From the NCBI GenBank assembly GCA_030750665.1, contig JASMHR010000009.1, positions 261 to 32,479 of the forward strand: a stretch of DNA of 32,219 bases. Direction: 5' to 3'. This document shows, one piece after another, positions 1,613-28,335 of the stretch; within the stretch, counting starts at the first letter, position 1, and each line of letters starts with the position of its first letter. This DNA is from Candidatus Poseidoniaceae archaeon (GTDB lineage Archaea > Thermoplasmatota > Poseidoniia > Poseidoniales > Poseidoniaceae). Below the pieces are notes generated by a model. That model did not search any database and was not told the origin of the DNA. It was given only the letters and a program-made list of their open reading frames with translations. Position numbers and translations under genes: made by a program.

Positions 1613-1630
1613 GGATATTCTACAAGTCGA

Positions 1631-3394: not shown

Positions 3395-3416
3395 GGGAGT
3401 CGCCCTAGTCAACCTC

Positions 3417-5086: not shown

Positions 5087-6049
5087 ATGTTTGCTAAGTT
5101 GGGCACAGTATTGCTGTGTCTGATATTTCTCAGTTCTGGATGCCTGCAAGCAACCACGAACAAGGATGACAAGATAGTTGATGATGATGTCCAAACTGTT
5201 CCTTGCAATGGTATGATCGAGTTGTGTGACCGAACATACAGCGATACCACCTTCCCAGAGACCCACAACAGTTTCTCCACACATGCCGATGGAATCTACT
5301 ACCCTGCAAGCAATCATGAAACCGGATTACAGGAACAATGGGATGCGGGAATGCGCGCTTTCATGCTCGATGCTCACTATAGAACCTCGATTTCAAGCGA
5401 GGCAAACGATGTTCGATTCTGTCACGGAGACCCTGATCGTGGAAGTAGCCCCTGCCATTATGGCGAGGTGAATGCCATCGCCTGGCTGAGCCACCTTCGA
5501 AGTCTGATGGCCAATGAAGAGAGAGATGTGGTGACTCTACTCTTTGAATCCACAGTTTCGGCTGAGCACATCGAATATATTCTCATCCAATCCGATCTTT
5601 CCGATTGGATATACCAACATGAACTTGCAAAGCAATGGCCTACCCTTGGTGAATTGATAGAAGCTGACACACGATTGGTGGTTTTCTGGGAGGAGGAGCA
5701 AAATGATGCATATCCTTGGTTACATGATTTCCTTGTATTCAGTTGGACCACCAACTTTGCTGAAAACGAACCTGAAGACATGAATTGTGAAGTCCATCGG
5801 GGTGATGGAACACAGCCAGTCTGGCATCTCAACAACTGGCTGAAGAATTCAGCAGGACTCTCAGACCCACAACGTGCTGGACAAGTGAACGACTATGATT
5901 TCCTTCTCAACCGCGGGCTTGAATGCTGGGGGATGCATGGCAAGCGCCCAACCTTCGTCGCAGTAGACTGGTGGGACGATGGCGATGTAGTAGCCGTGGC
6001 TCGTACACTCAATGAAATGGAGCATTGGGGCGACGAGATACCATCATGA
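5087..6049 (+). CDS. Secreted lipoprotein, PI-PLC X-domain-like phosphodiesterase
   Basis: Lipobox 'LIFLSSGCLQ'; 'PETHNSFSTHADG...QEQWDAGMRAFMLDAHY...RFCHGDPD' resembles the PLC-like 'THNS(F/Y) ... LD ... CHG' core with two candidate catalytic His. Confidence 0.7.
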   Translation: MFAKLGTVLLCLIFLSSGCLQATTNKDDKIVDDDVQTVPCNGMIELCDRTYSDTTFPETHNSFSTHADGIYYPASNHETGLQEQWDAGMRAFMLDAHYRTSISSEANDVRFCHGDPDRGSSPCHYGEVNAIAWLSHLRSLMANEERDVVTLLFESTVSAEHIEYILIQSDLSDWIYQHELAKQWPTLGELIEADTRLVVFWEEEQNDAYPWLHDFLVFSWTTNFAENEPEDMNCEVHRGDGTQPVWHLNNWLKNSAGLSDPQRAGQVNDYDFLLNRGLECWGMHGKRPTFVAVDWWDDGDVVAVARTLNEMEHWGDEIPS

Positions 6050-9000
6050 TAAACTCGAATCAGGAGCGAAAGAGAGAACTGCTCTACCATTCTGGTCGAA
6101 ATCCACCTTAGGGATATATCCTGAGAAATCAGTATTCAACAATGCAGAACGAATCTTTGTGGCCATGCTATCGTTGAGTTTGACCTTACCGACTCCCTTA
6201 ACATCCACTAATCCATTCATCAGGTCGATGACCTGAGCAGTACACTCATTGCTCATTTCACTCATATCGAGAACCTCTTCCCCAGCAGGAGTATCATCCT
6301 CATCTGGAGTCAAGGTTGGTTCAGGAATTGATTCCTCCTCAAGCTCTTCCTCGAATTCATCCAACATATCGTCCATTTCATCATCTGTGAGTTCCTCTTC
6401 GACTGCGGACTCTTCAGATTCCACAATTGCTTCTGACTCGATTGGCTCTTCTTCGATTGGCTCTTCTTCATCCACGACTGGGGCTGCCAATATTTCGGGT
6501 CCACCTTCAGACGTGATTTCACCCATGCCAACTCCCCAGCGCTGGAAGTACATCGCAGCCTGGATGAAGGCAGCAAGTCCAGCAAGAATCATGACGATTC
6601 CTCCCATTGTCGTATCGGGATCTACCAGAGCAATGAATCCACCAACAGTCGATGAAGCAATACCCATTGCTCTACGCCACGCAGATTCAGGGTCGATAGC
6701 AACCATCGAGCCACCATATACGATGATGATCAATGCCACCATCAGAGCACTAAAGTCGAAGGTGGACCACCAGACTCCAATACTGAAAAATACAACTCCA
6801 AGCATTCCCATCTGGTCATTCCATCGCCAATATTCTACACCATCTTCAGACCATTCCCATTGTGGATACCATTGTTTCCATGAAAGCAAGGAAAAGATGA
6901 TTCCATCGATGACCAGCACCCACCCTCCAATGTGGTGAATCCCCAGATCCCAAGTGGCTATTCTCTCAACATTGGCCAGCGCCAGAGCATGGAACAATGG
7001 AGTGATGAGGAATATCTTCTTGCTCCCAGTCTTGTATGAATCATATGTCACCCATATTGCCGCAAGAACACTTGAAATTCCATAGAGGACATCGAAAGAG
7101 AGGAAGAACAAAGCAAGGCCGCTCCAGTACAGGTATCTCTGCACATATTCTCTGTCAGCCGAGGTCTTATGTTTCATCAAATTCCGAGAGCCTTCCATTT
7201 CTTCTGTGAATGCAACAGTTTCAACATACATGAATAATGATTTATTCCTCGCCAGCATCGAAAAGAGCATTGTCATCAATCCAGAGAGAAGAAGGGAGTA
7301 ACTGAATATTTCAGAACCATTCAATTCAGGGAACGTATCAGCCAGAGCAGGTGGGAAAGCTATCACATATGCCCATGGTGCGAATACGAAGACCTCTGTC
7401 CTTCCAGCCAACCAACCAAGAATGATGATGAGAGTAGTCAGAATCAATAGCAGATAGGAACTGTGCACCATCAATGCCTGTAATGAGACGATCAATACGA
7501 ATGATGACCAGATGAATGGTAGACGTTCATCATCATGCTCTGGTGGATTTCTTCGGTCCTGAATGATACGTGAGAGCATCAACAGTGAGAAAGCAGCACC
7601 AAACCAGCCAACTATTCTACTGACATCGAAATCCAACATCTCTCCTTGAGTCAACAGGATATCGAATATGGCTCCTTCAGCAATCATTTCCTTGAGTATT
7701 CCACCTGCGATTGCAGGGCGAGTACCCATCAATGGAAGGGTCAATGGTGCCAGAACTGCCAACAATGACATACGATGTTGCCATGTTCTATGAGCAACGA
7801 TTGCAAACATGGTGAAGTAGACCAATCCACCAGTGGTATCGAGGATAGCAAGGGCCAACAATCCTATCAGACTTGCAATGTCAGCATTTCGTGACTTCTC
7901 TGAATCCTGTAACCCTCGCTTCTGAAGTGTGAGATGTACAGCAACAGGACCAGATATCAGAATCAAATCGAAAAGAAGACGCGACTTATCTAGAATCCTA
8001 TCGGCTCGATCCACATTGAACAACTCATTGCTCAATTGCAAAGACAATGGCAACGCCATCAGAAACAATGCCCATGCAGCGATAGCACGTGATTCAGCCG
8101 GACCTTCTTCCTCCTTGTTCAATTCCCATATCATCAATGCAACTGGCACTGCCAAGAGGATTATCCACCACTCCTCCAACAATGCGCTGCCATTCACCGA
8201 AGCCAGGGCTATTCCGAAGAGAATCAAAGGGCCAATCAATGATACTCTTGCGAATGAACCCCAGCCTTTACCCAACCATTCAGGGTTCTCTGGATCTTCT
8301 TCTTCAACTGCCGGAACCGTCAGTATTCCAGATTCAGGATTGAAGACCGGTGTTTGAGCGCCACTCTTGACCGCCCACGAATTGAAGTGCCCGATGTCAA
8401 GTTCCTCCACCTTGCTGTTCTTGCCGAGCGCGTAATAGACTGCTGCGATGATGACGAGGACTAGATTGAAACCCTCCAATTCCGGCATGAATGACCAGTT
8501 CAACTCCAGGCGCCCGAAAGCAGCAAGCATTGTTGTCAGACCAAGACTTGTCAATATCGTCATAGACGCATCCTTCCTCTGCTGTAGTCCTTCAGCTGGT
8601 TTGCTTGTCGCTTCAGCAGCAACCACCAACAGATAGGCTGAGAAAGCCCATGGAACAGTGTTGTTCGCTTCGATTAGCATCGACGGTGAAAGCACGACCA
8701 GAACCATTGCCACACGGAATGCATTTCCGGAGATTCTCTCGATACGACGGGCCCATTCACCAATCGCCAATAGTGCCAATGGTATGACATGAATCAAATT
8801 GGTCTCGATGGTTCCCCAGAACTCCATCCCTGAGTTATGCTGAGCGTGACTCATCCAATCGACGACCAGGAATGCGAATGCTGCACTGCAGAAAGTCGCC
8901 TGCCTGACCCATTTCCTGCTGTCGGGCTTCCATAACAAGTATGGAAGCATGATGAGAGTCAATGCCCATGCAGCCTGATTGCTGGGGTGAGGAATGAGGA

Positions 9001-10153
9001 ACAATGCAAAAGCGAGCCCTATCGGCATCCATGGAACCCGCTTCATATGGACGGCACCAAAATACCCGAACAGCAGACTCAGCCACAACACAGCAGCCCC
9101 AGAAAGCCAATCTTCAGGCCCCAACTTCAGCGGGCCTAGATGCATTGTCAGATCCCCACCAGTCATCCACGCCATGGCGATGAGTGCAGCAGCGACAAGC
9201 CCAAGAGATGCTCTCTCGATTATCGCCTGAGCATCCTTCAACTGTGGCGATATCGCAAGAAGACCTTGAGCGAAGATGATGAAAACCATCAGCGACAATG
9301 CACTTCCAGTTCCATCATTTACCAACTCATAGATGATTGGCATGAAGGAAGCAAGCACAGCCACTACTGAGAATACAAGTGTTCGATTGCTCTGAATCCC
9401 AATCCACATCCCTAGAATGCTCAGAACAACCAATGAAATTCCCAGTTCATAACTCACCCCACCGTTAGACCAATCTATCCATGTTCCAAGTCCAACAATC
9501 AACAATCCGAATGGAGTGATGGCAGCGACGAACCATGACAAGATTCCGGTTCCAGTCTCCTTGATCTTGAGATACCACCAACTTGCTATTCCAAGGAGGA
9601 CTGCCGCAGCAGCGTGAACAACAATGCCCATAGATCCTGGGACCCATTCCTCATCGGCAAATGGCCTTGCATCATCCACCAGCCAAGAGAAGCCTAGGCG
9701 ATCGGGATCAGCAGCGAAAGCCATTCCCCATCTAAGGAACCAAAACAAGCCAGCAGCACCAAAGAACAATCCCATTCCCAAGAGATAATCGTGCATCGTA
9801 GCCAATTTACCGTGACTGCGTCGTTGGCGCTCAACCACCCAAATGAATGCAGAAGCCGTTGCAAGTCCTCCAATTCCAAGCATCAAGAATCGTTCATTCG
9901 TCTCACCTTGGGTGAAAGCGATGTAGAATAAACCGCCCCATAGTCCCATCATAGCAACTCCGAAAAGCCAGAATTGTGCTAATCTCTCGACCAGAGGAAT
10001 AGGGCCGGTCAGTGGTAACTGGACAATCTCATCTGCTGAAGGTGCGGCTATTGAAGGATTGAGAACCCCAGATGGAATGGCAAGATTTCCACTGGCTGCT
10101 GAAATGCGTTTCCGAGGTTTGGGGCGACTTGGGGGGCGGCTTGGCGCAGGCAT
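6044..10153 (-). CDS. Very large polytopic membrane protein with acidic cytoplasmic-like tail (unknown function)
   Basis: About 1370 aa, dozens of hydrophobic segments; basic Pro-rich N terminus 'MPAPSRPPSRPKPRKR'; acidic linker 'VVDEEEPIEEEPIESEAIVESEESAVEEELTDDEMDDMLDEFEEELEEE' then a short C-terminal domain 'CTAQVIDLMNGLVDVKGVGKVKLNDSMATKIRSALL'. ATG at 10153 preferred over the TTG at 10171. Confidence 0.85.
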   Translation of the reverse strand: MPAPSRPPSRPKPRKRISAASGNLAIPSGVLNPSIAAPSADEIVQLPLTGPIPLVERLAQFWLFGVAMMGLWGGLFYIAFTQGETNERFLMLGIGGLATASAFIWVVERQRRSHGKLATMHDYLLGMGLFFGAAGLFWFLRWGMAFAADPDRLGFSWLVDDARPFADEEWVPGSMGIVVHAAAAVLLGIASWWYLKIKETGTGILSWFVAAITPFGLLIVGLGTWIDWSNGGVSYELGISLVVLSILGMWIGIQSNRTLVFSVVAVLASFMPIIYELVNDGTGSALSLMVFIIFAQGLLAISPQLKDAQAIIERASLGLVAAALIAMAWMTGGDLTMHLGPLKLGPEDWLSGAAVLWLSLLFGYFGAVHMKRVPWMPIGLAFALFLIPHPSNQAAWALTLIMLPYLLWKPDSRKWVRQATFCSAAFAFLVVDWMSHAQHNSGMEFWGTIETNLIHVIPLALLAIGEWARRIERISGNAFRVAMVLVVLSPSMLIEANNTVPWAFSAYLLVVAAEATSKPAEGLQQRKDASMTILTSLGLTTMLAAFGRLELNWSFMPELEGFNLVLVIIAAVYYALGKNSKVEELDIGHFNSWAVKSGAQTPVFNPESGILTVPAVEEEDPENPEWLGKGWGSFARVSLIGPLILFGIALASVNGSALLEEWWIILLAVPVALMIWELNKEEEGPAESRAIAAWALFLMALPLSLQLSNELFNVDRADRILDKSRLLFDLILISGPVAVHLTLQKRGLQDSEKSRNADIASLIGLLALAILDTTGGLVYFTMFAIVAHRTWQHRMSLLAVLAPLTLPLMGTRPAIAGGILKEMIAEGAIFDILLTQGEMLDFDVSRIVGWFGAAFSLLMLSRIIQDRRNPPEHDDERLPFIWSSFVLIVSLQALMVHSSYLLLILTTLIIILGWLAGRTEVFVFAPWAYVIAFPPALADTFPELNGSEIFSYSLLLSGLMTMLFSMLARNKSLFMYVETVAFTEEMEGSRNLMKHKTSADREYVQRYLYWSGLALFFLSFDVLYGISSVLAAIWVTYDSYKTGSKKIFLITPLFHALALANVERIATWDLGIHHIGGWVLVIDGIIFSLLSWKQWYPQWEWSEDGVEYWRWNDQMGMLGVVFFSIGVWWSTFDFSALMVALIIIVYGGSMVAIDPESAWRRAMGIASSTVGGFIALVDPDTTMGGIVMILAGLAAFIQAAMYFQRWGVGMGEITSEGGPEILAAPVVDEEEPIEEEPIESEAIVESEESAVEEELTDDEMDDMLDEFEEELEEESIPEPTLTPDEDDTPAGEEVLDMSEMSNECTAQVIDLMNGLVDVKGVGKVKLNDSMATKIRSALLNTDFSGYIPKVDFDQNGRAVLSFAPDSSLS
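6438..6467. repeat. Perfect tandem duplication of a 15-bp unit (TCGATTGGCTCTTCT x2)
   Basis: Direct reading: tcgattggctcttct|tcgattggctcttct; encodes the EEPIEEEPIE repeat on the minus strand. Confidence 0.9.
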
Positions 10154-10208
10154 GCTATCGAACTGTTTCAACTCTCTAGGAACTTAAACAATGGGCCGGA
10201 TGAAATGA

Positions 10209-12748: not shown

Positions 12749-13348
12749 ATGGTAGATAGAGAACATGTACAGATGTTGCCCAAACCACCTGTCTCCAAGT
12801 GGCAGGCAGAAGTGAATGGGCTGAAGAGCGAAATATTGGTGGAATCAAATGCGATTCTGCTAGATGTCCTACGAGACAAAGTAGGTACACTGGGTGTGAA
12901 AAGAGGATGTGACATGGGCACCTGTGGCTGTTGCTCGGTCCTTGTCGATGGTGAACCACGGCTTTCTTGCTTGATGCTTGCAGAAGAAGCCAGAGGTCGT
13001 TCAATAACAACTGTTGAAGGGTTGGCGGATGGACACCATCTGCATCCAATCCAGACTTGTTTCGCTGAAGCCGGAGGTTCACAATGCGGTTTCTGCACAC
13101 CTGGTTTCCTAGTGGTCTGCTCGGCTCTGCTTGAGGAGAATCCAGAACCAAACAAAAATGAGATCAAAGATGCCATTGAAGGCAACCTTTGCCGCTGCAC
13201 GGGATATCAGCAGATTGTTGAAGCGGTTGAGATGGCAGCGGAGATCAAACGTTCTGACGAATCCCCATCCAATCTCACCACTCCTTCTTCTGACCCTCAT
13301 CCTGTTGGTCCTGATGAGCCGAGCCTACCGCCTGGAGATGCTCGTTGA
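12749..13348 (+). CDS. Molybdenum hydroxylase small subunit, two [2Fe-2S] clusters (HcrC/CoxS-like)
   Basis: 'KRGCDMGTCGCCSVLVDGEPRLSCL' and 'QCGFCTPGFLVVCSALL...IEGNLCRCTGYQQIVEAV' are canonical small-subunit cluster motifs; Pro/Ser-rich C-terminal extension. Confidence 0.95.
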   Translation: MVDREHVQMLPKPPVSKWQAEVNGLKSEILVESNAILLDVLRDKVGTLGVKRGCDMGTCGCCSVLVDGEPRLSCLMLAEEARGRSITTVEGLADGHHLHPIQTCFAEAGGSQCGFCTPGFLVVCSALLEENPEPNKNEIKDAIEGNLCRCTGYQQIVEAVEMAAEIKRSDESPSNLTTPSSDPHPVGPDEPSLPPGDAR

Positions 13349-13359
13349 GAGGTGATATC

Positions 13360-16152
13360 ATGAGTGGGGCGCCCAGACAATCTTTCGACAAGACGCGTAA
13401 GGATGGCAAACGCGTTGCTGGTCAACAGGATTTCGGAGTCCCAGGGAGCGGCGGTTCATCCCCTCAAAGCAAACTCCAGAATATCGATAATATTCCAATG
13501 AGTCAAGGCGGCCAGAAGAAACAACCCCGCGGCCCACACGTCCATGACCAACATATCACTGGGACCAGTATCGGCAAACGGACTCCATTGGTTGATTCTA
13601 ACTGGAAGATGACTGGACAGGCGCGTTATGGCGATGATATTCGACTACCTGGTGAACTGATTGGGAAGATTCTACGTTCCCCGCATCACTACGCAACAAT
13701 CCGTTCCATCGATACCAGAGCTGCTGAAGCCCTCAAAGGAGTGGTGGCGGTTGCTACTGGCAAAGATTCTGTCAATAGTTTCGGAGTCCTCCCTGTAACT
13801 AAGGATGAACATGCACTGGCTCAGAACAAGGTTCGTCATGTCGGTGACCTAGTCGCTTGTGTTGCTGCATGCGACGAAGCAACCGCAATCGAAGCACTTT
13901 CACTGATTGAGGTGGAATACGATATCCTTGATTCAATACATGACATGGAAGATGGACTTGAAGATAGTGAGCACCCTATTCACGACCGTGGAAAGTATCA
14001 CATCGGTGAGTCAAACATCCAAAAGAGAGTGTTCCAGCAATTCGGTAACCTCTCTTCAATGGATGAGGCGGCTGCATCCAGTGAAGCGGACTGGACCTTC
14101 GCAGGATTGCATCACGGTTTCACTGAACCGCATGCAGTTGTTGCGCATTGGGACCCCACGGGACGCTTGACAGTGTATACTCCTCAACAAGTTCCGCATT
14201 ATCTACATCGTGCCCTATCATCAGTACTGGATATTCCAATGCACCAGATAAACGTCTACCGAACTTTCGTTGGAGGAGGATTCGGTGGCAAATCGGATCC
14301 ATTCCCACATGAGATGTGTGCTGCTATCCTCGCACGCAAATCTGGAAGTCCGGTTAGGATATGTTTCGATAGAGAAGAAGTATATTGGATAAATCGAGGT
14401 AGACATCCCTCACGTATCCAGATGGGGGTTCATGCTGATGATGAAGGAAGAATCGCTGGTATTGAGACTGATGCCCTGATCGATGGGGGGGCGTTCGCAT
14501 CATTCGGACACGTCACCACTTACTACAATGGTGTCCTGCATACATCTCCCTATGAAATCGGTGGATTCCATTACACTGGAGCGAGGGTGTGGACGAATAA
14601 ACCAGCCAGTGGAGCAATGCGTGGGCATGGCGCTGTCAATAGTCGATGTGCTGTTGAAGTGGGAATAGATGAGGTATCAGAAAAACTAGGCCTCGACCCA
14701 ATGACATTCAGACTTGCCAACCTTCTCCCACCCCATTCAAGAACAATCACTGGATTCCGCATTACATCCACTGGAATGCGAGAATGTCTGGCCAAAGTAA
14801 GGGAACAATCTGGATGGGATAAGAAATTCCGCAACCTACCATTCGGACGCGGCATTGGTGTTGGATGTGGTTTCTTCATCTCAGGTTCTGGACTGCCAAT
14901 CCATTGGGATCCTGAGAACTTCCCACATGCAACCGTTCATCTGCAATGCGATATGGATGGTGGAGTCACTGTTCACACCGGCGCTGCGGAAATAGGACAG
15001 GGCAGTGATACTGCTATTGCACAGGCCGTCTGTGAAGTTCTTGCTCTGCCTCTGGATATGATCAGGATTCGTTCACAGGAAAGTGATACCGCACCAGTTG
15101 ATCTAGGTTCATATTCCTCCCGTGTAACATTCATGAATGCCAATGCTGCAATAAGAGCAGCCATTGATTTACGAGACAAGATACTGAAAGCCACCTGGGA
15201 ACTGATTGGATATCATCCCGACCAACTGGTTCTAGGAGACCGACGCATCTACTACAAACACGACCCAGCCATTGGTGTTTCATGGTTAGAAGCAGTGCAC
15301 AAGGCTCAGGCTGACAGTGGTTCACTGATTGCTAGCGGCTCCTATAGAACGCCACCCATGGGGGGTGTCCACAAAGGTGCCGCAGCAGGATTGGCCCCCG
15401 CGTATTCATTCTCTGCATATGTCGCAGAAGTGGAGGTTGACGCTGAGACCGGATTCATCAAAGTCGTCAAGGCATGGGCTGCTCATGATTGCGGCAAGGC
15501 CTTGAATCCACTCGCTGTTGAAGGACAAATAATCGGCTCCTGCCACATGGGCATGGGTCAAGTGCTGTCCGAAGAAATGAAGTATGGACGCAATGGACAC
15601 CTGATGAATCCTGATCTCCTCGATTACAAGATCATGAGCGTGCATGAGATGCCAGAAGTGGTACCTATCATCGTTGAGAGCAATGACCCAGAGGGGCCAT
15701 TCGGTGCCAAGGAAGCAGGAGAAGGGCCACTGTTACCAATATTACCGGCAGTGTGTAACGCGGTTTACGATGCCATCGGCATTCGACCCGATGAATTGCC
15801 TTTGACTCCAGACAGAGTGCACAAGATGATTGAAAAGAAATGCAAAGAATTGGAAATAGATGACCCACTTGAATTACCTAATCCTTCTTTCGAGCCATCT
15901 GCATTGCAGCAGAAGATATCCGAAAGAGCGGAGGAACACGCTGAACGGGACCTGCAGCGTGACCTCTTGAAAGACAGAACTGCATATGTCAACGGAGTAT
16001 TGTTCGGCTTCGACCCTGAACTTCCGCTCATAGAACAGGATGAAGGCTGGAGGGAAGCAATAACTCCCGAACAAGAGGATCTTATCGAAGATGGAAAGCG
16101 TGCTGCACGGGCATGGAAACATGCCGAACGTCGACACAGGGGTGATGACTGA
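13360..16152 (+). CDS. Molybdenum hydroxylase large subunit, 4-hydroxybenzoyl-CoA reductase alpha-like
   Basis: 'IGKRTPLVDSNWKMTGQARYGDDIRLPGELIGKILRSPHHYATI', 'TFVGGGFGGKSD', 'GAMRGHGAVNSRCAVE', 'EIGQGSDTAIAQ', 'DLGSYSSRVTFMNANAA', 'GAKEAGEGPL'. SD GAGGTGAT at 13349-13356 supports the ATG at 13360 over the TTG at 13345. Confidence 0.9.
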   Translation: MSGAPRQSFDKTRKDGKRVAGQQDFGVPGSGGSSPQSKLQNIDNIPMSQGGQKKQPRGPHVHDQHITGTSIGKRTPLVDSNWKMTGQARYGDDIRLPGELIGKILRSPHHYATIRSIDTRAAEALKGVVAVATGKDSVNSFGVLPVTKDEHALAQNKVRHVGDLVACVAACDEATAIEALSLIEVEYDILDSIHDMEDGLEDSEHPIHDRGKYHIGESNIQKRVFQQFGNLSSMDEAAASSEADWTFAGLHHGFTEPHAVVAHWDPTGRLTVYTPQQVPHYLHRALSSVLDIPMHQINVYRTFVGGGFGGKSDPFPHEMCAAILARKSGSPVRICFDREEVYWINRGRHPSRIQMGVHADDEGRIAGIETDALIDGGAFASFGHVTTYYNGVLHTSPYEIGGFHYTGARVWTNKPASGAMRGHGAVNSRCAVEVGIDEVSEKLGLDPMTFRLANLLPPHSRTITGFRITSTGMRECLAKVREQSGWDKKFRNLPFGRGIGVGCGFFISGSGLPIHWDPENFPHATVHLQCDMDGGVTVHTGAAEIGQGSDTAIAQAVCEVLALPLDMIRIRSQESDTAPVDLGSYSSRVTFMNANAAIRAAIDLRDKILKATWELIGYHPDQLVLGDRRIYYKHDPAIGVSWLEAVHKAQADSGSLIASGSYRTPPMGGVHKGAAAGLAPAYSFSAYVAEVEVDAETGFIKVVKAWAAHDCGKALNPLAVEGQIIGSCHMGMGQVLSEEMKYGRNGHLMNPDLLDYKIMSVHEMPEVVPIIVESNDPEGPFGAKEAGEGPLLPILPAVCNAVYDAIGIRPDELPLTPDRVHKMIEKKCKELEIDDPLELPNPSFEPSALQQKISERAEEHAERDLQRDLLKDRTAYVNGVLFGFDPELPLIEQDEGWREAITPEQEDLIEDGKRAARAWKHAERRHRGDD

Positions 16153-17138
16153 TGCGGATGCCGCCTTTCGTTCTACATTCGCCAAAAAGCATCACGGAAG
16201 CGATGAGCATCGCTGAAACCTTGCTTGATATCGGTGAGGATTTTGATTGGGTCTCAGGTGGTACTGACCTGCTTCCAAATTACAAGTGGCATCTGAACAC
16301 CAAACCCAGCGTGATATCATTGGCAGGAGTGGAAGAGATGAACAGATTGAGTGAGAATCATATTGGCGGCATGGTCAGACTACATGACCTCGCCAATGAT
16401 GAGTCAACCCATCCGCTGATTCGTCAAGCCACCTCAACCATCGCTTCAGTCATGATAAGGCGCTCTGGGACCGTTGGCGGAAACATCTGTCTCGATACAC
16501 GATGCTCCTGGTTCAATCAGACCGAAGAATGGCGCAGGTCCATCGAGTGGTGCCACAAATGCGATTGCGATACCTCGGCAGATTGCCGAGTCATCCCCAA
16601 CCAGAACACATTGTGCGTTGCAACCTACCAAGCCGACCTTGCTCCGGTCCTGATGTGCTTGGATGCAACCATTCACTTGGTTTCCCCATCTGGTTCTCGT
16701 TCAATGCCAATTCAAGATTTCTTTGAACTCGACGGTATCAAGAGAAATGTCCTTGCTGCAGGTGAAATGGTTTCGCACATCACCTTGCCCGAAGATGCCA
16801 AGAATTGGTCCGGCTCATACCGTAAACTGAGACTCAGGAAGTCATGGGATTTCCCTGAGGCGGGAGTTGCTGTTGCATGGAATGGTACCAATGATTCGTT
16901 GCAAGGCTTGAGAATAGCGACCACAGGATGTGAATCCATTCCTCGTTCGCACAATGAAGAAGCCAGTTCTGTTCTGAAGGCATGGGATGGAGAACAAAGT
17001 GTCAAAGAATTGGGACAAATGATTCGCGGAGTAGTGAAACCGGTGAACAATACTTACTTCCCTCCTTCCTACCGCCGGAAGATGCTGCCGGTACTGGTGA
17101 AAAGGGCGTTTTCGAGTCTTATTGAAGGAGCTGTGTAG
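16152..17138 (+). CDS. Molybdenum hydroxylase FAD-binding medium subunit with HcrB-type [4Fe-4S] loop
   Basis: FAD motifs 'VSGGTDLLPNYKW' and 'RRSGTVGGNICLDTRC'; Cys-rich insert 'RCSWFNQTEEWRRSIEWCHKCDCDTSADCRVIPNQNTLCVATYQADLAPVL' as in 4-hydroxybenzoyl-CoA reductase beta subunits. Confidence 0.9.
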   Translation: MRMPPFVLHSPKSITEAMSIAETLLDIGEDFDWVSGGTDLLPNYKWHLNTKPSVISLAGVEEMNRLSENHIGGMVRLHDLANDESTHPLIRQATSTIASVMIRRSGTVGGNICLDTRCSWFNQTEEWRRSIEWCHKCDCDTSADCRVIPNQNTLCVATYQADLAPVLMCLDATIHLVSPSGSRSMPIQDFFELDGIKRNVLAAGEMVSHITLPEDAKNWSGSYRKLRLRKSWDFPEAGVAVAWNGTNDSLQGLRIATTGCESIPRSHNEEASSVLKAWDGEQSVKELGQMIRGVVKPVNNTYFPPSYRRKMLPVLVKRAFSSLIEGAV

Positions 17139-17140: not shown

Positions 17141-18139
17141 ATGTTCAACAGAATGATATTGGTTTCCATCATGCTCATGCTGCCAATGATTTCACTGAGC
17201 AATCCAGCATCAGCTCAAGAAGCCCCATCATGGGAGATTGGCTGGGTAGAGGAGCATTCGGATGCTGTCCTTCTGAATTCAATAGGTGACAAGAACTCGA
17301 ATGATTGGTGGGATAGAGGCGGAACCGCTACTTTGGAATTCTACATCGAGAACACAAGGGTGGTCGAAGTCACAATCAATCTTGAGTTTGAGAGTGATCA
17401 CGAAGGCGAGTTCGACTGGGTCGAAGTTGATCTGGATGAGAGCGTGGTGGTTCAAGGCCAGTCGAATAAGACCTTCTCAATTACTATAGAAGTTGGGTCT
17501 TTGAATGATGTCAGTGAAGGTAGCACACATGAATTGAGAGTTATCGCTCAAGAAGACTCTCTATTCCCCACTACTCCTCAGATCATCGATGTGGATACTC
17601 AAGTGCCAAGAGTCGCTGTCATGACTGCAGATGTAGTAAACGAGGGGGTACCCGTCATGGCAGGTGATTCCATGGATGTCAAGGTTGAGATAACAAATCT
17701 TGGGAACAAAAATGATGGCTTGATGAACAGCGAGACGAAACTGACCATAGATGGCTGCCCGCAACTTGATGCAGAAGATGATTCCAGCCTGTTCGAAACT
17801 GTCGAACCGGGAGCGACCATTGAAGCAATATTCACGGTTTCAGCATCCTCAAGTCATCCATCCAAATCATGTATAGTCACATTCCGTTCATCCTCTGCTG
17901 GACTTGCAAGTGTGACCGATAGCATCGAGCTAGAAGTAAGGTCTTCATCTTCAGGAAATGGTGGTGGGAGCAATGGCGGTGGAAATAATGGCGAAAATAA
18001 CGGCGGAGGAGATGGCGATGACATTGAATCCGACGAGGAAGTTCGGGCGAATTTTCTTTATTCCTTATCTTTGGCCTCAAGCCTTGCAATTATCAGTATT
18101 GCAGCCTTGGTTCGACGTTTTGATACTAATTGCCCCTGA
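17141..18139 (+). CDS. Secreted, membrane-anchored surface protein with Ig-like (CARDB-like) domains
   Basis: Signal peptide 'MFNRMILVSIMLMLPMISLSNPASAQ'; beta-rich repeats; Gly/Asn linker 'GNGGGSNGGGNNGENNGGGDGDD'; C-terminal TM plus basic residues. Confidence 0.75.
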   Translation: MFNRMILVSIMLMLPMISLSNPASAQEAPSWEIGWVEEHSDAVLLNSIGDKNSNDWWDRGGTATLEFYIENTRVVEVTINLEFESDHEGEFDWVEVDLDESVVVQGQSNKTFSITIEVGSLNDVSEGSTHELRVIAQEDSLFPTTPQIIDVDTQVPRVAVMTADVVNEGVPVMAGDSMDVKVEITNLGNKNDGLMNSETKLTIDGCPQLDAEDDSSLFETVEPGATIEAIFTVSASSSHPSKSCIVTFRSSSAGLASVTDSIELEVRSSSSGNGGGSNGGGNNGENNGGGDGDDIESDEEVRANFLYSLSLASSLAIISIAALVRRFDTNCP

Positions 18140-18212
18140 TAGATACCCTTGCCAACCTATGACCAGTGATGGGTAACCTATTTGAGTGGTATTTTGCTCG
18201 GCGAAGCGTCAT

Positions 18213-18222
18213 TGTCTAGACA
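18213..18222. promoter_or_regulatory. 10-bp palindrome TGTCTAGACA upstream of the DUF4350-MoxR-DUF58 cluster
   Basis: Read directly; 27 nt upstream of the ATG at 18250 in an about 110-bp intergenic region. Confidence 0.25.
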
Positions 18223-18249
18223 TCGTCAGAATAACGGGTTGAGAATAAT

Positions 18250-19842
18250 ATGTCAGAGGCCAAAGAAGGAATACGTCTGGAGACTTGGCTTGGAGTCGGG
18301 GTCGTCGTTTCGATTCTTCTTTCAACATCTGTCATCCTTCTCGCCAGCAGCGACAAACAAACCGTCTACAGTGCATATGTGACCGAGGCTGATGGAGACT
18401 ATCAGTATCAACAATTGAGTGAGATGAGAGCATCTCTCGACAAGTACACGATTGCCAACACCATGTCTACTCCCATGCTCGTCAATGATTGGAGAGAGCC
18501 TCACCGTACCACTCTAGTCATCGTCGCCCCAGAGAAGCCATTCGATATGGCTGAAGCAGAAGCGATCCATGATTTCGTGACCGAGAAAGGCGGGAAGGTC
18601 ATTCTCGCTGCTGATTCAAGCAACGCCCAGAGAGTTGCAAACCAATTCGGAGTACAATTCTTCGAATACCCGATAATGGATATGGACCACTTCTATGAGG
18701 TCAAACATTTCAGCGGAGGGGAGGCCGGTACCCAAGCACCACAGAACCAGACCAATGTCTGGACTGTAGCCACTATCAACCAAGATGTTTCACAAGTAGA
18801 TGGGTTGGCTCTTAACACAGGTTGTACAGAAGAGAACCTCAATTCACACAAGACCGACAACTGTCGAATGCCAGTACTGATGCGTAGTCCAACTGCGATT
18901 CAAGTTCTTGGTCCTGGAGCGAATGAAGCCGAAGATGTGCGCAGAGATGTCAAGGTTCTTGCGACCGCTTCAGATTCCGCCTATCAGGACGTTCTCGGCA
19001 CTGCAGATTTGAGAAGCGAACTCAACATCGACCTTGGAGCCGGTCAAACTGGATTGATAATTCGAATAGATTATCCTGGAATCAAGGCCATGGACATCAA
19101 CCCAGGGTCTGGAGACAGGCTAGATGAGGTGGAGGTGACAGGAAGTATCGTCTTCGTCGCCAATGATGATGCATTTGCAGACCATCTCTGGGACCTTCCT
19201 ACCGCCCTCGTCACGGGCAAGGATCAATGCCAATCAGAACTTGTCTATGCAGACCATACCTGCTGGAATTCCGAATTATCGGCAAGCAGTGACTGGAAGG
19301 GTAATGGCGCCTACTTCGCAGAACTCATCCATGATATGAGCGAACAGGAGAACGACGAGTTGTCAAGTCTCATCAAATTACATCCTGAGAAATTCTATCT
19401 GGTATTCGATGAATCAAGACACGTCACCAGCACTCTGACCTCACCATTTACCGAAGCGATGGGAGCGATTGTCCTACTCACTTCAGATGCTTGGCTAAAG
19501 TGGTTGATTGTTCTCAATCTACTGGCTTTGTTATCAATTGCGATAATGGTAGTTCCAGAGAAAGAAAATTGGCGACATGTATTCGACCTCACTAGATTCA
19601 GAGAAAGGCCTGAAAAATTGGACCCTGGAACTTACCAACTACGGGTCAGGCAGGCACTCATGGAAAAGGTGCGGATATTCTACGACTTCACCAAGGAAGA
19701 GATGGTACACAAGTCACCCCCTGAGATTCAAGCAATGATCCGCGACCCCAGACTAATAGAATTGGCCTACAGCCAGAACCGTATTTTCGCCCCAGAAGAG
19801 TTGCGCCAGCTATTGCAGGCGATACGCCGCTGGGGTAAATGA
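18250..19842 (+). CDS. DUF4350-like membrane protein (MoxR-cluster associated)
   Basis: N-terminal TM, 'TTLVIVAPEKPFDMAEAEAIHDFVTEKGGKVILAADSSNAQRVANQFGV' (GATase-like region), central TM 'WLKWLIVLNLLALLSIAIMVV'; followed by MoxR and DUF58 genes. Confidence 0.75.
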   Translation: MSEAKEGIRLETWLGVGVVVSILLSTSVILLASSDKQTVYSAYVTEADGDYQYQQLSEMRASLDKYTIANTMSTPMLVNDWREPHRTTLVIVAPEKPFDMAEAEAIHDFVTEKGGKVILAADSSNAQRVANQFGVQFFEYPIMDMDHFYEVKHFSGGEAGTQAPQNQTNVWTVATINQDVSQVDGLALNTGCTEENLNSHKTDNCRMPVLMRSPTAIQVLGPGANEAEDVRRDVKVLATASDSAYQDVLGTADLRSELNIDLGAGQTGLIIRIDYPGIKAMDINPGSGDRLDEVEVTGSIVFVANDDAFADHLWDLPTALVTGKDQCQSELVYADHTCWNSELSASSDWKGNGAYFAELIHDMSEQENDELSSLIKLHPEKFYLVFDESRHVTSTLTSPFTEAMGAIVLLTSDAWLKWLIVLNLLALLSIAIMVVPEKENWRHVFDLTRFRERPEKLDPGTYQLRVRQALMEKVRIFYDFTKEEMVHKSPPEIQAMIRDPRLIELAYSQNRIFAPEELRQLLQAIRRWGK

Positions 19843-21008
19843 ATAAAAGAAGAACCGAGGAGGAGAAAATAATGCAACCCCCAGCCGTACCACCGACAGC
19901 CCCAGCTCCGCCAGCCCCGGCGGCGCCTATGCCAGCAGCCCCAGCAGCGCCAATGCCAGCACCAGCAGCACCGGCAGCACCGATGCCAGCAGCACCCGCC
20001 GCTCCAGTTCAGGCTCAAGCAGCAGCACAACCCAGACACCAAAGCAACCCTGAAGTCCGAGAGCGTCTTCAAGCGGTTGGTGCCATCTCCCAAGCTATCA
20101 ATGCGGAAGTACAGAAGGTGATCATTGGAAAGTCGCACGTCATCGACAATGTTCTAATCGACATTCTTTCCAACGGAAACCTACTCTTCGAAGATTATCC
20201 CGGATTGGCAAAGACACTGATGACCAACACCTTCGCAGATGCATTGGGTTGTGATTTCAAGCGAGTTCAATTCACTCCTGACCTGCTACCTGCAGATATC
20301 ACTGGTACAAACATCTACGATGCCAAGAAAGGAGAGTTCACCTTCAAGCCGGGTCCATTGTTCTGTAATCTACTACTTGCTGACGAGATCAACCGTGCAC
20401 CGCCAAAGACTCAAGCAGCTCTGCTTGAGGCGATGCAGGAGAAGCAAGTGACCATTGGAACGGTGACCCACAAGTTGCCAGCACCATTCATCGTTATGGC
20501 GACTCAGAACCCGGTGGAGCAGGAAGGTACCTATCCACTACCAGAAGCTCAACTGGACCGTTTCATGTTCAAGATGAGTGTCGGATATCCTGACCGTGCC
20601 GATGAAGACGAGATTCTGTCTCGACGTATCGCTCGAAGAAAGGATGCAGTTGATGTCGATGTCATCACCGACCCACAGCGTGTCATCGCCATGCAACAAG
20701 CATGTGAAGATGTATACGTTGACCCGGCCATTCGTATGTACATGGTCGAATGTGTTGCCCGAACACGTGAAGACCCACGAGTACTCGTTGGTTCCTCACC
20801 TCGTGGTTCTCAGGCGCTACTCAAGGTCGGTCGTGCTTCTGCAGCTATGCGTGGACGCGACTTCGTGACTCCCGACGACATCAAGTCCGTCGCAGAACTC
20901 GCACTTGCTCACAGGCTGATTCTCAAGCCAGAACATCAGATTAAGGGTCTGGAACCCGGAGAAGTGATTCAGTCTATTCTCAGAGAAGTTCCAGTTCCAA
21001 CCGTCTGA
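19839..21008 (+). CDS. MoxR-family AAA+ ATPase with Pro/Ala-rich N-terminal extension
   Basis: 'LLFEDYPGLAKTLM', 'LLLADEINRAPPKTQAALLEAMQEKQVT', 'MATQNPVEQEGTYPLPEAQLDRFMFK'. Alternative start at 19872 preceded by purine-rich GAGGAGGAG. Confidence 0.95.
   Translation: MNKRRTEEEKIMQPPAVPPTAPAPPAPAAPMPAAPAAPMPAPAAPAAPMPAAPAAPVQAQAAAQPRHQSNPEVRERLQAVGAISQAINAEVQKVIIGKSHVIDNVLIDILSNGNLLFEDYPGLAKTLMTNTFADALGCDFKRVQFTPDLLPADITGTNIYDAKKGEFTFKPGPLFCNLLLADEINRAPPKTQAALLEAMQEKQVTIGTVTHKLPAPFIVMATQNPVEQEGTYPLPEAQLDRFMFKMSVGYPDRADEDEILSRRIARRKDAVDVDVITDPQRVIAMQQACEDVYVDPAIRMYMVECVARTREDPRVLVGSSPRGSQALLKVGRASAAMRGRDFVTPDDIKSVAELALAHRLILKPEHQIKGLEPGEVIQSILREVPVPTV
19879..20030 (+). repeat. Degenerate Pro/Ala-coding low-complexity repeat (PAAPMPAAPAAP)
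   Basis: Repeated gccagcagccccagcagcgccaatgccagc-type sequence within the moxR 5' end. Confidence 0.8.
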
Positions 21009-21041
21009 GTTCAAAGTGTGAGGTTCTGGAAGTGAAGCACG

Positions 21042-22355
21042 ATGTGGTCGCGCAAATCCGCCCTGCTTGGAAGCCTAGCGGTTTCCATGTACTTGATGGG
21101 GTTGACGTTGCGCAATTCACAGTTGATCACAGTCGCAGTTGTGATTTTTGTTTTCCTTACTTACGCTGCACTGTTTTCAGGGCACGCTGATGTAGCGGCC
21201 AGTGGTCGCAGAATGGATGAATGGATGGGAGAGGAAGGGGTTGCTCTCTCAAATGTTTCAGCTATGAGGAAATTATCTTCTGCCAGAGTCTTTGAAGATG
21301 GCGAGGTTGAAATCACCCTGAGAATGCAGAACCACAGTGCGTTGCCGAAGATTCTTGAGGTTCGAGATCGGGTTCCTGAAGTCATGCGTATCAAGCAAGG
21401 CGCAAATTACATCTTGATGGAATTGGGACCTCGCCGTGAAACATTCATCGAATATACCGTTGAATGTCCACTCAGAGGATTCTACAGCGTAGGCCCTGTG
21501 GCTGTTCGTGTTCAGGATCCATTCGGAATGTTCCACAAGGAGAAGGAACTACATGTATACGATGATTTCTTGGTATTTCCAAAAATGGAAGACCTCAAGG
21601 ATGCTTTCGTCAAGAGCAGGGTTCCAAAGATTTTCACTGGAGCTGTGAACATAAGGCAACCAGGACCAGGCAGTGAGTTCTACAGCCTGCGCGAGTACTT
21701 CGATGGAGACTCTTTCAGATCAATCAACTGGAATGCATACGCTCGCAGTGGTAAATTGATGGTCAATGAAAGAGAAAGAGATGCTGTATCGGACATCATT
21801 CTCATCGTTGACAGTAGAGCGATTGCTGAGACTGGACCAGTCAGTCGAAATGCACTTGTTTATTCAACACGGGCTGCCGCCTCTCTTGCCAGATATTTCC
21901 TCTCAAGAAGAGATTCCGTGGGCCTCATCGTCTATGGAGACGAAGTGGTATCAGTGGATCGAGACACCGGTAAGAAGCAGTTGTATGTCATCTTGACCAA
22001 ACTGGCTGGAGCGATGGCGAGAGGAAACACTCCCCTACAGGTAGTTGTCAATCGTATTCTTCCACACATCAACAAAGGAAGTCCGATTATTGTCATGTCT
22101 AATCTGGAACAAGACCCAACAATAATCAATGCTCTTCGAGACTTCAGAGCAAGGGACTTCGATGTCACAGTTCTATCCCCATCAAGTCTTGAGTTTGAGT
22201 TCGATGCGCGTCGTATCGACAGAACTGGCTTCGAAGTGATGAAGACTGAACGCGACATCCTGATTAGCGAATTGCGCGGGATGGGCGTGAACATCATGGA
22301 TTGGGAACCTGATATGTTACTATCAACTGCTCTGGCTGGAGCAAGGGGATTCTGA
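21042..22355 (+). CDS. DUF58 domain protein
   Basis: 'REYFDGDSFRSINWNAYARSGKLMVNERERDAVSDIILIVDSRA' is the DUF58 hallmark, preceded by TM segments and followed by a vWA-like region. Confidence 0.93.
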   Translation: MWSRKSALLGSLAVSMYLMGLTLRNSQLITVAVVIFVFLTYAALFSGHADVAASGRRMDEWMGEEGVALSNVSAMRKLSSARVFEDGEVEITLRMQNHSALPKILEVRDRVPEVMRIKQGANYILMELGPRRETFIEYTVECPLRGFYSVGPVAVRVQDPFGMFHKEKELHVYDDFLVFPKMEDLKDAFVKSRVPKIFTGAVNIRQPGPGSEFYSLREYFDGDSFRSINWNAYARSGKLMVNERERDAVSDIILIVDSRAIAETGPVSRNALVYSTRAAASLARYFLSRRDSVGLIVYGDEVVSVDRDTGKKQLYVILTKLAGAMARGNTPLQVVVNRILPHINKGSPIIVMSNLEQDPTIINALRDFRARDFDVTVLSPSSLEFEFDARRIDRTGFEVMKTERDILISELRGMGVNIMDWEPDMLLSTALAGARGF

Positions 22356-22364
22356 GGTGAAAAC

Positions 22365-23315
22365 ATGAGACAGGCAGCAGCACCACCACCACTAGCACCG
22401 AGACCATCTCGCAGTGACACTTCACATCTCTATGATGGTAAGGTCGTACGTTCCGCAGCACCCAGTAGAAAGAAGGCTGCTGGCAAGATGAAATCGGGAA
22501 CTGAGGTTCCTGATGATGCTGTTCCAGAAGTTCATATCCCTAGTTTCATCGAGGCTCTTCTCGGTGGCCCAGTAGTTCCAAAACACAAGTTCTTGCCTGC
22601 AGATAGGATGGTTCAGACCTTGCAATTAGGCGCCTATGCGATGTTGATTTCACTAGGCGTCATCACTTGGATAGTCACACCTCCTCAAGGAACATTTTGG
22701 TTCTGGATATTCGGTGGTGTCGGAGGCGCAACATTGCTGCAGGCAATGGTCATCCTTTCAGCCACCGGCACAGGATTCTGGGGGACAATGTCCAGAGACC
22801 CACGTTGGCTGCTCGCATCCTATTTCCTGTTCATACTCGCTGCAATGCGCTTCGCTTCCAGTAAGGTCGCATTGTCTAACGACTGGTTCGACCTACAGCA
22901 GAATCCTTGGCTGGAGACCACACTCATTGTCGTATACGCAGTACTTCTTGTCATGTACTTTGAATTGACCAATGGGGTAATCAGATTCAGTATGCTCGAT
23001 ACCAGCATCCGTACCAATGAGGTCTATGTCATGAATGTCAAGCGAATCATCAGCAAATATCATCGCAGTCTGATGATCAATCCTGCTATTGCTGGTGCAT
23101 TAGCAGCATCAGTATTGTCAATCAACACAATCATCCCAGCTGTAGTCGAATGGTTCTCTTCAGAAACCGCGATACGTATGGAAGAAAGTGTTGAGTTGAT
23201 TTCTGTTTACGGAGTTGCCATCGGTAGTCTGTTCGTATTCCTGCTGGTAGGCTTGATGTTTGCAGTCAATCTACCTCTAAGGTTGCAGAAATGGCGTGAA
23301 GAGCGAAACACCTGA
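22365..23315 (+). CDS. Multi-pass membrane protein of unknown function in MoxR cluster
   Basis: 316 aa with several TM helices and a Pro/Ala-rich N terminus 'MRQAAAPPPLAPRPSRS'; SD GAGGTGA at 22354-22360. Confidence 0.8.
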   Translation: MRQAAAPPPLAPRPSRSDTSHLYDGKVVRSAAPSRKKAAGKMKSGTEVPDDAVPEVHIPSFIEALLGGPVVPKHKFLPADRMVQTLQLGAYAMLISLGVITWIVTPPQGTFWFWIFGGVGGATLLQAMVILSATGTGFWGTMSRDPRWLLASYFLFILAAMRFASSKVALSNDWFDLQQNPWLETTLIVVYAVLLVMYFELTNGVIRFSMLDTSIRTNEVYVMNVKRIISKYHRSLMINPAIAGALAASVLSINTIIPAVVEWFSSETAIRMEESVELISVYGVAIGSLFVFLLVGLMFAVNLPLRLQKWREERNT

Positions 23316-23316: not shown

Positions 23317-24585
23317 TCAGCAGGCCAAATTATACTGTGCCACTAATTCCTTGACCAGCTGATTGAGATTCGGCTCATCAGTCAAGAAATGTGAAGCATA
23401 ACGCTCATCTATAGAAGCAATGGCATCGTTTCTCTGATGGATGATATCTTGCCCGATAAGCGAAATCAGAGAACCGGTTACACTCTTCTCGAAGGTTGAA
23501 TCCATAGACTCCAGAAGAAGATCCAACTTAGTGGAGAGAGAGGCTGGGACGAACATCATGATATGGCCTTCAGAAACCTTGACCACCCAAACCCTGACCG
23601 CTTCCTCTCTGATCAACCCCATCACAGAATTGAACTTGGAAGCAGTATCAATACCTGAAGTATGGATAGAATACTGAATAATGCCAGGAGTACACGAAAT
23701 CGCTGAAACTCGACGATCAGCAGTCTCGATATCTGGACCTATCGTCGTGAATACTCCATCAAGATGCAATGGTCTGATCTCAAGTGGGATGCCAGTGCCC
23801 AATAATGGCTCTATACACGCTGCATGGAGTACTACACCACCCGCTCTGGCCAAGGCCAATGCTTCTTCCTGTCCAAGATATGGTATGGTCTGTGAGTCAA
23901 TACCCCAACGGGGGCTAACCGAAAGAACACCTGGAACATCCTTCCACAAGATGATTCGGCGGGCCTCAAGAATTGTGGCTAGAGCCGCTGCAGAAAGGTC
24001 ACTTCCACCTCTATCTAGAACCCTGACCCTACCACTGCTATCATTTCCAAACCATCCACTGACCACTGGAGTACGTGGTTCAAGAAGCGTTCTCTTAATC
24101 TCAACACTACTCATTGGAAGGTCAATCTCTGCACCATTTTCTGAAATCACCAGTCCGAGTTCATCAGATTCCACCGCTGCACAATCAAAGCCTCTGCGCC
24201 GGAGGGCCTCTGCAACTACGATAGATGACAATCTCTCACCACATGCAAGAATCGAGTTCCTGAGTAGTTCATTCTCAGATTCCTGACACAAGTCCAACAA
24301 ATACCCAGATAGTTTCTCCAGAGTATGTTTGAATCTGAGTCCTGCTTCCTCCTCTTCCAATCCGGGAGTGAATCGTAGATGTTGTCTGCGAAGATCGTTG
24401 ACCAGATTACTCCATTGCCATGGTTCACGAATTGCTCGAATCAAACGGTCCGTTACTCCCCATAAGGCCGAGACCACAATCAGCGGACGACCTTCGCAGG
24501 TCAATAGACGGTGATGTATCTGCTCCAAATCACCAGGAATCCTTAGGCAAGAGCCCCCGAATTTGTGAATCACCCAATCATTCAT
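23317..24585 (-). CDS. Aspartate kinase
   Basis: 'VIHKFGGSCLRIPGD', 'ACGERLSSIVVAEALRRRGFDCAAVES', 'DRGGSDLSAAALATILEARRIILWKDVPGVLSVSPR'. SD GAGGAGGTG (minus strand, about 24592-24600) supports the ATG at 24585. Confidence 0.9.
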   Translation of the reverse strand: MNDWVIHKFGGSCLRIPGDLEQIHHRLLTCEGRPLIVVSALWGVTDRLIRAIREPWQWSNLVNDLRRQHLRFTPGLEEEEAGLRFKHTLEKLSGYLLDLCQESENELLRNSILACGERLSSIVVAEALRRRGFDCAAVESDELGLVISENGAEIDLPMSSVEIKRTLLEPRTPVVSGWFGNDSSGRVRVLDRGGSDLSAAALATILEARRIILWKDVPGVLSVSPRWGIDSQTIPYLGQEEALALARAGGVVLHAACIEPLLGTGIPLEIRPLHLDGVFTTIGPDIETADRRVSAISCTPGIIQYSIHTSGIDTASKFNSVMGLIREEAVRVWVVKVSEGHIMMFVPASLSTKLDLLLESMDSTFEKSVTGSLISLIGQDIIHQRNDAIASIDERYASHFLTDEPNLNQLVKELVAQYNLAC

Positions 24586-25645
24586 CCTGTGCACCTCCTC
24601 CTAGTAGAATATCAGCGATGACTAGTCTGCACATTGCTTCTGCAACCGGCACTGCTCTCGGCCCCAACACAGGGTCATGTCTGCCACCTACCACCAGTTC
24701 CTTCTGTTCCCCACTGACCATATCAAGAGTATGCTGCGGTAATGAGATGCTGCTGGGTGGTTTCAAAGTCAATGCCATCCGTAATGGGGCACCAGTAGCC
24801 ATCCCACCCAAAGCGCCATCACCATCTGTCTTCGGTCCGTCCTTGCCCATGTACCATGGTGAATTATGCTGGCTACCTCTACTTTGACAGACATCGATTC
24901 CATCTCCAAACTCAACCGCTCTGGCTCCAGGAACCGACATCAATGAGTGAGCCAATAATGGTTCAAGACCCTCAAACCATGGAGCCCCGAAACCCAAAGG
25001 TAGTCCTTCGATGACAATGCTTACTTTGGAACCAACCGAATCGCCCAACTTCCTTATCTCAAGAACATGAGAAAGCATTTCTTGAGCGGATTCTGGATTT
25101 GAACATCTTACCCGTTGGCAGGCTTCATCATCCGGAAGAGCGAGTGGAATAGATTCGCATCTGACGCTGCCAATTGCAGAGACATGGGCGCGTACAGATA
25201 TCCCATGTTCATGCAATAATGGGGAGCAAAGACTCGCTGCGGCCACCAACCCTGCGGTCAAACGAGCACTGTTCACTCCACCTCCACGTGGGTCTGCCGC
25301 CCCCTCACTGTTGACCATGGCCGGAAGGTCGGCGTGTCCTGGACGTGGCATATCTGGGAGAAATGAATAATCACTGGAGCGAGCATCAACATTGCGAATC
25401 AATAGTAGAAGTGGTGAGCCTGTAGCCTTTCCTTCATAGACGCCTGAGAGAATCTCACAATAGTCAGATTCTTTGCGCAATGAGCCAATGCCGCTTCCAG
25501 GCCTCCTTCGCTCTAATTCAGCAGCGAGAAATTCCTCATCGATAATAGTACCAGCAGGAATTCCTTCTACAAGAGCACCTACTGCAGGGCCGTGACTTTC
25601 ACCGAATAATGTCGTACGCAATCTCTCACCGATGCGCATCGACAT
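24578..25645 (-). CDS. aroC: Chorismate synthase
   Basis: 'TTLFGESHGPAVGALVEGIPAG', 'RRRPGSGIGSLRKESDYCEILSGVYEGKATGSPLLLLIRN', 'RPGHADLPAM', 'GGGVNSARLTAG'. Confidence 0.96.
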   Translation of the reverse strand: MSMRIGERLRTTLFGESHGPAVGALVEGIPAGTIIDEEFLAAELERRRPGSGIGSLRKESDYCEILSGVYEGKATGSPLLLLIRNVDARSSDYSFLPDMPRPGHADLPAMVNSEGAADPRGGGVNSARLTAGLVAAASLCSPLLHEHGISVRAHVSAIGSVRCESIPLALPDDEACQRVRCSNPESAQEMLSHVLEIRKLGDSVGSKVSIVIEGLPLGFGAPWFEGLEPLLAHSLMSVPGARAVEFGDGIDVCQSRGSQHNSPWYMGKDGPKTDGDGALGGMATGAPLRMALTLKPPSSISLPQHTLDMVSGEQKELVVGGRHDPVLGPRAVPVAEAMCRLVIADILLGGGAQDE

Positions 25646-25689
25646 AAGGCCTCATGCCCGGGTGGGCACTTGAGGGTTCAAGCCTTCTC

Positions 25690-26577: not shown

Positions 26578-26581
26578 GCCA

Positions 26582-28332: not shown

Positions 28333-28335
28333 GCA

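Follow-up and report, generated by a model that had tools for sequence, protein, structure and literature searches.

A 4-hydroxybenzoyl-CoA reductase-like molybdenum enzyme found throughout the Poseidoniales and its possible BoxB-like partner

The window, by which we mean the whole 32,219-nucleotide stretch of archaeal DNA analysed here, contains three complete and intact genes whose products resemble the subunits of 4-hydroxybenzoyl-CoA reductase (HCR), the enzyme that takes the hydroxyl group off 4-hydroxybenzoyl-CoA. The genes and their main features are:

12749-13348, plus strand: hcrC-like small subunit, 2x[2Fe-2S], with a C-terminal extension (199 aa; Pfam Fer2 and Fer2_2)
13345-16152, plus strand: hcrA-like large Mo subunit with order-specific N- and C-terminal extensions (935 aa; hammerhead, MoCoBD_1 and MoCoBD_2)
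14524-14526, plus strand: codon of Tyr394, the equivalent of Thauera HcrA Tyr326 in the alignment to 1RM6
15100-15135, plus strand: DLGSYSSRVTFM segment, hcrA residues 586-597, matching NGSYSSRVTFM of 1RM6
15721-15723, plus strand: codon of Glu793, aligned with Thauera Glu726, the family's catalytic base
16152-17138, plus strand: hcrB-like FAD subunit with a [4Fe-4S] Cys loop (328 aa; FAD_binding_5)
16503-16616, plus strand: Cys loop of hcrB with ligands C118, C134, C145 and C155; the stretch from ligand 2 to ligand 3 has an insertion of three residues and two additional cysteines, C137 and C139

An earlier note on this DNA had described three overlapping or abutting genes for small, large and medium subunits, and both the open reading frames and the Pfam domains agree with that description: hcrC and hcrA overlap by 4 bases and hcrA and hcrB by 1 base. 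The start of hcrA is a TTG at 13345, with the next in-frame ATG at 13360. A fusion of hcrB with the downstream gene (suggested by open frames of 650 codons) was rejected, as an in-frame stop lies between them. Together the three genes encode a predicted heterotrimer in which the large subunit would hold the Mo cofactor, the medium subunit FAD and the four [4Fe-4S] ligand cysteines, and the small subunit 2x[2Fe-2S].

Thauera aromatica HCR (1RM6) is the best PDB match for all three subunits (E=6e-187 for the hcrA-like protein against chain A, 7e-47 for the hcrB-like protein against chain B and 3e-46 for the hcrC-like protein against chain C), and its lead over the CO dehydrogenase (CODH), quinoline oxidoreductase, PaoABC and xanthine oxidase structures is wide for the large and medium subunits and narrow for the small one. 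HCR models are likewise the top NCBIfam matches for each subunit; all three miss the HCR equivalog cut-offs (177 of 258 bits for TIGR03193, 786 of 995 for TIGR03194 and 239 of 405 for TIGR03195). The Tyr326 equivalent is a tyrosine in 58 of 59 HCR-type large subunits and in none of eight outgroup sequences. More generally, the equivalents of Tyr326, Met357, His360 and Glu723 are kept across the HCR type with single-sequence exceptions and mostly differ in the outgroups, whereas that of Glu726 is common to both, as expected of the family's base. In the 1RM6 structure, Tyr326, Glu726 and their fellow residues are important for catalysis. The HCR-style segment that the earlier note had picked out in the large subunit is present and matches 1RM6, and SYSSRVTFM is kept throughout the HCR-type sequences, again with single-sequence exceptions, and is not found in the outgroups; the AYxCSFR string is, as had been claimed, absent from the translation. 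The extra Cys loop reported for the medium subunit was also borne out, since C118, C134, C145 and C155 align with the [4Fe-4S] ligands C122, C138, C146 and C155 of Thauera HcrB. All four ligands occur in every HCR-type medium subunit recovered. The loop might have been shared by unrelated members of the family, but none of the four outgroup medium subunits has it.

A maximum-likelihood tree of large subunits places Thauera and the HCR-type sequences together (SH-aLRT 100) and apart from purine xanthine dehydrogenase (XDH), XdhB, PaoC and CODH-annotated sequences, so that the large subunit lies outside the XDH- and CODH-type sequences and is not nested among them. The Poseidoniales large subunits form one clade, also on a supported branch. 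The tree is a quick one with long branches and one characterised HCR, and the internal branching order of the HCR type is not settled by it. A plasmid collection held no HCR-type relatives, and its best matches (25-35%, loop absent) served as outgroups. The PDB matches, the active-site residues, the Cys loop and the tree thus agree in supporting the HCR-like identity originally proposed.

With hcrA as query, the large subunit was found in 191 of 194 Poseidoniales (Marine Group II) genomes at 70-84% identity, and in all 34 of those that are at least 90% complete; carriage extends over both families (Poseidoniaceae and Thalassarchaeaceae) and all 22 genera. Searching the sister family within the class with the medium subunit gave no match in most genomes and a weak one in a single genome. 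Beyond the order, HCR-type relatives occur in several Thermoplasmatota families and in Planctomycetota, Wallbacteria, KSB1 and Marinimicrobia. The hcrA of the window's own genus (family f1) groups with two genera of the other family (f2; L054 and L058), at 84% identity compared with about 72% to other f1 sequences, while the downstream MoxR and DUF58 genes are closer to f1; exchange of hcr genes within the Poseidoniales is the likely explanation on this sequence comparison.

The neighbourhood of the three genes includes candidates for cofactor supply and for acyl-CoA metabolism, together with a conserved block (17141-23315):

1511-2827, plus strand: MCAD-type acyl-CoA dehydrogenase, true start probably near codon 60
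2834-3394, plus strand: MobA/MocA-like nucleotidyltransferase, probably for the MCD cofactor form (PF12804, E=1e-26)
3333-4253, plus strand: XdhC-family Mo-cofactor insertion chaperone (PF13478 and PF02625)
17141-18139, plus strand: secreted protein, start of the conserved downstream block
18250-19842, plus strand: DUF4350-like, same block
19839-21008, plus strand: MoxR ATPase, same block
21042-22355, plus strand: DUF58, same block
22365-23315, plus strand: gene of no assigned kind, end of the block

The earlier note had mentioned neither the spread of the enzyme through a whole marine order nor the acyl-CoA dehydrogenase, MobA/MocA-like and XdhC genes upstream of hcrCAB. The order MobA-XdhC-hcrC-hcrA-hcrB recurs in other Thermoplasmatota carriers, and an ortholog of the acyl-CoA dehydrogenase lies on the same strand, 5-13.5 kb upstream of hcrA, in 12 of 16 Poseidoniales genomes. 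The KSB1 cluster reads ALDH-ECH-thiolase-ACAD-hcrCAB-HBDH, and its ACAD is 50% identical to that of the window. In Marinimicrobia, a CoA-dehydratase-type activase, had and oah (both over their model cut-offs), a dch-like gene, a short-chain dehydrogenase and a thiolase precede hcrCAB, a neighbourhood that we assign, from its predicted gene products, to the anaerobic benzoyl-CoA route. The five-gene downstream block follows hcrCAB with its order and strand kept in 20 of 20 Poseidoniales genomes. Further along the window, chorismate synthase, archaeal shikimate kinase, 3-dehydroquinate synthase II and a DeoC/LacD-family aldolase are encoded consecutively (24578-28389), a row predicted to serve archaeal aromatic amino acid synthesis; an aspartokinase-like gene (23317-24594) adjoins it. 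On the minus strand, 6044-10171 is an open frame of 1375 codons with no Pfam match, and a frame weakly similar to it (25-63%) lies near hcr in many Poseidoniales.

The earlier note had remarked on an HCR-type enzyme without visible benzoyl-CoA pathway genes. As regards the window this is correct, and it also applies to class I benzoyl-CoA reductase (PF06050): none of 16 Poseidoniales genomes, of which 15 are at least 90% complete, has it. A search for benzoate-CoA ligase gave nothing above cut-off, and class II benzoyl-CoA reductase, though it may occur in single genomes, is no general answer for the order because W-dependent AFOR_C proteins occur in only 5 of the 16 genomes. (The idea that HCR is the sole molybdenum enzyme found no support, with PF00384 proteins in 14 of the 16, some of which may be NuoG-like.) The remark does not hold for the order as a whole, since a BoxB-like oxygenase is encoded elsewhere in the genome, outside the window. 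All 15 near-complete (at least 90%) Poseidoniales genomes have a PF05138 diiron protein that scores 216 bits with TIGR03225 (BoxB) against 43 for PaaA and whose best PDB match is the benzoyl-CoA 2,3-epoxidase BoxB (3PER, E=6e-46), although 216 bits is below the TIGR03225 cut-off of 499. BoxB has the diiron ligands E120, E150, H153, D211, E240 and H243, and also Gln116, Thr119, Ser123, Phe193 and Phe203 (PMC5489048). All six ligands and all five further residues are kept in the Poseidoniales protein, which differs from BoxB in its length (380 residues against about 475) and in the replacement of Thr210 by Ile/Val.

In seven of seven Poseidoniales genomes the BoxB-like gene is accompanied by genes for a 3-hydroxyacyl-CoA dehydrogenase and a 185-residue protein, with hydratase and aldehyde dehydrogenase genes nearby in most of them. 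The 185-residue protein (for example L181:9702-10292) follows the BoxB-like gene in all seven and has no family or structure match. In the window's own assembly the BoxB-like gene (L234:2124-2333, contig C107) lacks its middle, residues ~38-325, owing to a misassembly or to a true deletion; the matches in congeneric genomes are longer. Given a BoxB-like oxygenase in a beta-oxidation-type cluster, the new substrate or reverse reaction that the earlier note had proposed is not required, though each retains some probability, as discussed below.

Among other Thermoplasmatota, a BoxB/PaaA-like match was found in 22 of 26 hcr carriers against 1 of 23 non-carriers (Fisher p=7e-9), or 7/7 against 1/15 when counted by family (p=5e-5), counts that partly depend on ancestry or aerobic lifestyle and that treat the weak hcrB matches of two non-carriers (G194 and G329) as other XDH-family members. 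Carriers of one family (f6) have a PaaA-like rather than a BoxB-like protein, and one genome (G293, family f4) has a strong BoxB-like protein (55%) without an hcrB match, the sole such case among those tested. Of the bacterial carriers, 12 of 13 have a BoxB/PaaA-like match: the three Planctomycetota proteins tested are true BoxB (676-729 bits, over the TIGR03225 cut-off), and the matches in KSB1 and two other carriers are weak. The only bacterial carrier without a match is the Marinimicrobia genome with the anaerobic benzoyl-CoA cluster. This pattern of co-occurrence with BoxB or with an anaerobic cluster, a correlation and not proof, is our chief reason to think that the enzyme works in benzoyl-CoA-type metabolism.

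Our results are consistent with a model, which we consider evenly poised between right and wrong, in which a cytosolic HCR-type Mo enzyme acts on an aromatic CoA thioester and feeds an O2-dependent benzoyl-CoA-type route that is core to the Poseidoniales. Electrons would enter at the [4Fe-4S]/FAD subunit and pass through the [2Fe-2S] clusters to Mo, where the para-hydroxyl of a 4-hydroxybenzoyl-CoA-like substrate would be removed; such a substrate could come from beta-oxidation of hydroxyphenylpropanoids via the linked acyl-CoA dehydrogenase. The benzoyl-CoA-like product would then go to the BoxB-like diiron oxygenase and on to the neighbouring hydratase, 3-hydroxyacyl-CoA dehydrogenase and aldehyde dehydrogenase. 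Sequence establishes the fold family, cofactor ligands, conserved residues, distribution and neighbours; we infer the substrate, direction, electron donor and pathway, of which the first two do not follow from sequence alone. The reductive direction is favoured because the [4Fe-4S] cluster is kept in every relative, and the title of Unciuleac et al. 2004 (cited in PMC12771579) links this extra cluster of HCR to inverted electron flow. Counting against the model are the unmet HCR cut-offs, the BoxB-like score far below its cut-off, the PaaA-like proteins of family f6, the BoxB-like protein without hcrB in G293 and the search for benzoate-CoA ligase, which yielded none above cut-off. It also counts against it that Thauera HCR is oxygen-labile while the water inhabited by the Poseidoniales hosts is oxic. 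The Poseidoniales, several marine or sediment bacteria and Thermoplasmatota may combine the two steps in a hybrid route, with an HCR-type reductase that tolerates oxygen dehydroxylating hydroxyaryl-CoA and a BoxB-type oxygenase then acting on the product with O2; we put this somewhat short of an even chance.

Run in the reverse direction, the enzyme would be an aryl-CoA or heteroaryl-CoA hydroxylase that takes its OH from water and delivers electrons to the respiratory chain, and the furoyl-CoA dehydrogenase of aerobes provides a model for this. The oxic hosts and the failure to find class I benzoyl-CoA reductase in any of the 16 genomes would fit a hydroxylase, as would the mostly oxidative reactions of the xanthine oxidase family (PMC12771579), but we think it unlikely given that no relative has lost the low-potential [4Fe-4S] loop and that the gene cluster of one relative is for anaerobic benzoyl-CoA reduction, a setting in which the enzyme would be expected to work reductively. 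Reductive dehydroxylation of some other aromatic thioester or ester, such as hydroxyphenylacetyl-CoA or a hydroxycinnamoyl-type compound, also strikes us as improbable. There is precedent in Ucdh, a family member that dehydroxylates another scaffold (PMC12771579), and both the PaaA-like oxygenases alongside the enzyme in one carrier family and the modest 43% identity to Thauera HcrA leave room for it; the true BoxB or benzoyl-CoA reduction cluster beside other relatives points instead to benzoyl-CoA.

It is very unlikely that the enzyme is a xanthine (purine) dehydrogenase, even though the superfamily and domain plan are alike. A metatranscriptome study took xdhC and yagS annotations in Thalassarchaeaceae as evidence for xanthine catabolism (PMC9723583), and this most likely concerns the same enzyme, because the single MoCoBD_1 protein in the window's genome is the hcrA-like gene product itself. 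XDH models score 507 bits against 786 for the HCR model, and the purine-linked outgroup lacks the [4Fe-4S] Cys loop, has other active-site residues than HCR and forms a separate clade in the tree. An aerobic CO dehydrogenase, with MoxR and the vWA-type DUF58 as CoxD/CoxE-like maturation factors, draws on the position of these two genes after hcrB in 20 of 20 genomes and on CoxD being a MoxR-like ATPase (PMC2997495), but is scarcely credible given the missing AYxCSFR, CODH model scores of 267-307 against 786 bits for HCR, and the weakening of the maturation idea by DUF58 in same-class (sister-family) genomes that lack hcrB and on separate contigs in hcr carriers outside the Poseidoniales.

In the sunlit ocean, few microbes are commoner than the Marine Group II archaea, which are uncultivated planktonic heterotrophs thought to use proteins and lipids. 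Since the HCR-type enzyme and the BoxB-like relative are near-universal in the order, handling aromatic compounds may belong to the core activities of the Poseidoniales. If our preferred model of an HCR-type enzyme feeding an oxygenase route is true, phenolic compounds would join the Marine Group II diet as a core trait, the published xanthine dehydrogenase reading (PMC9723583) would be corrected, and an anaerobe-type step would form part of core metabolism in archaea that abound at the ocean surface. It would also place an enzyme type known from anaerobes in oxic water, and the way in which its low-potential clusters withstand oxygen would become a testable question. In the open literature we found no paper joining Poseidoniales or Marine Group II to hydroxybenzoyl-CoA, or HCR to the box pathway.

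PMC12771579 describes HCR and Ucdh, as of December 2025, as the first two members of the xanthine oxidase family to catalyse reductive dehydroxylation. Compared by description only, the Ucdh system shares with ours the proposed XO-family reductive dehydroxylation and an XdhC chaperone, but belongs to gut Clostridia, and the XO-family proteins of E. bolteae have 23-34% identity with HCR. Thauera aromatica HcrABC (PDB 1RM6 and 1SB3) is closer in its three-subunit plan, the [4Fe-4S] loop of the FAD subunit, SYSSRVTFM and Tyr326/His360/Glu726, with 43% identity between HcrA and the Poseidoniales large subunit. The latter differs from Thauera and all relatives in an N-terminal extension and some 100 more C-terminal residues (108-112 after the reference column against 7-28 in relatives, setting aside the long open frames of some high-G+C Thermoplasmatota), and the small subunit is also longer than in relatives. 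Between Cys ligands 2 and 3 the Poseidoniales have 10 residues, mostly with 1-2 extra Cys, against 7 in Thauera and relatives, and the hosts are oxic and without class I benzoyl-CoA reductase, unlike the usual, though not strictly defining, setting of HCR upstream of an anaerobic benzoyl-CoA reductase. Because of the scores below the equivalog cut-offs, the order-specific extensions and the altered cluster loop, we classify the predicted enzyme, short of a proven HCR, as an HCR-type variant of the Poseidoniales.
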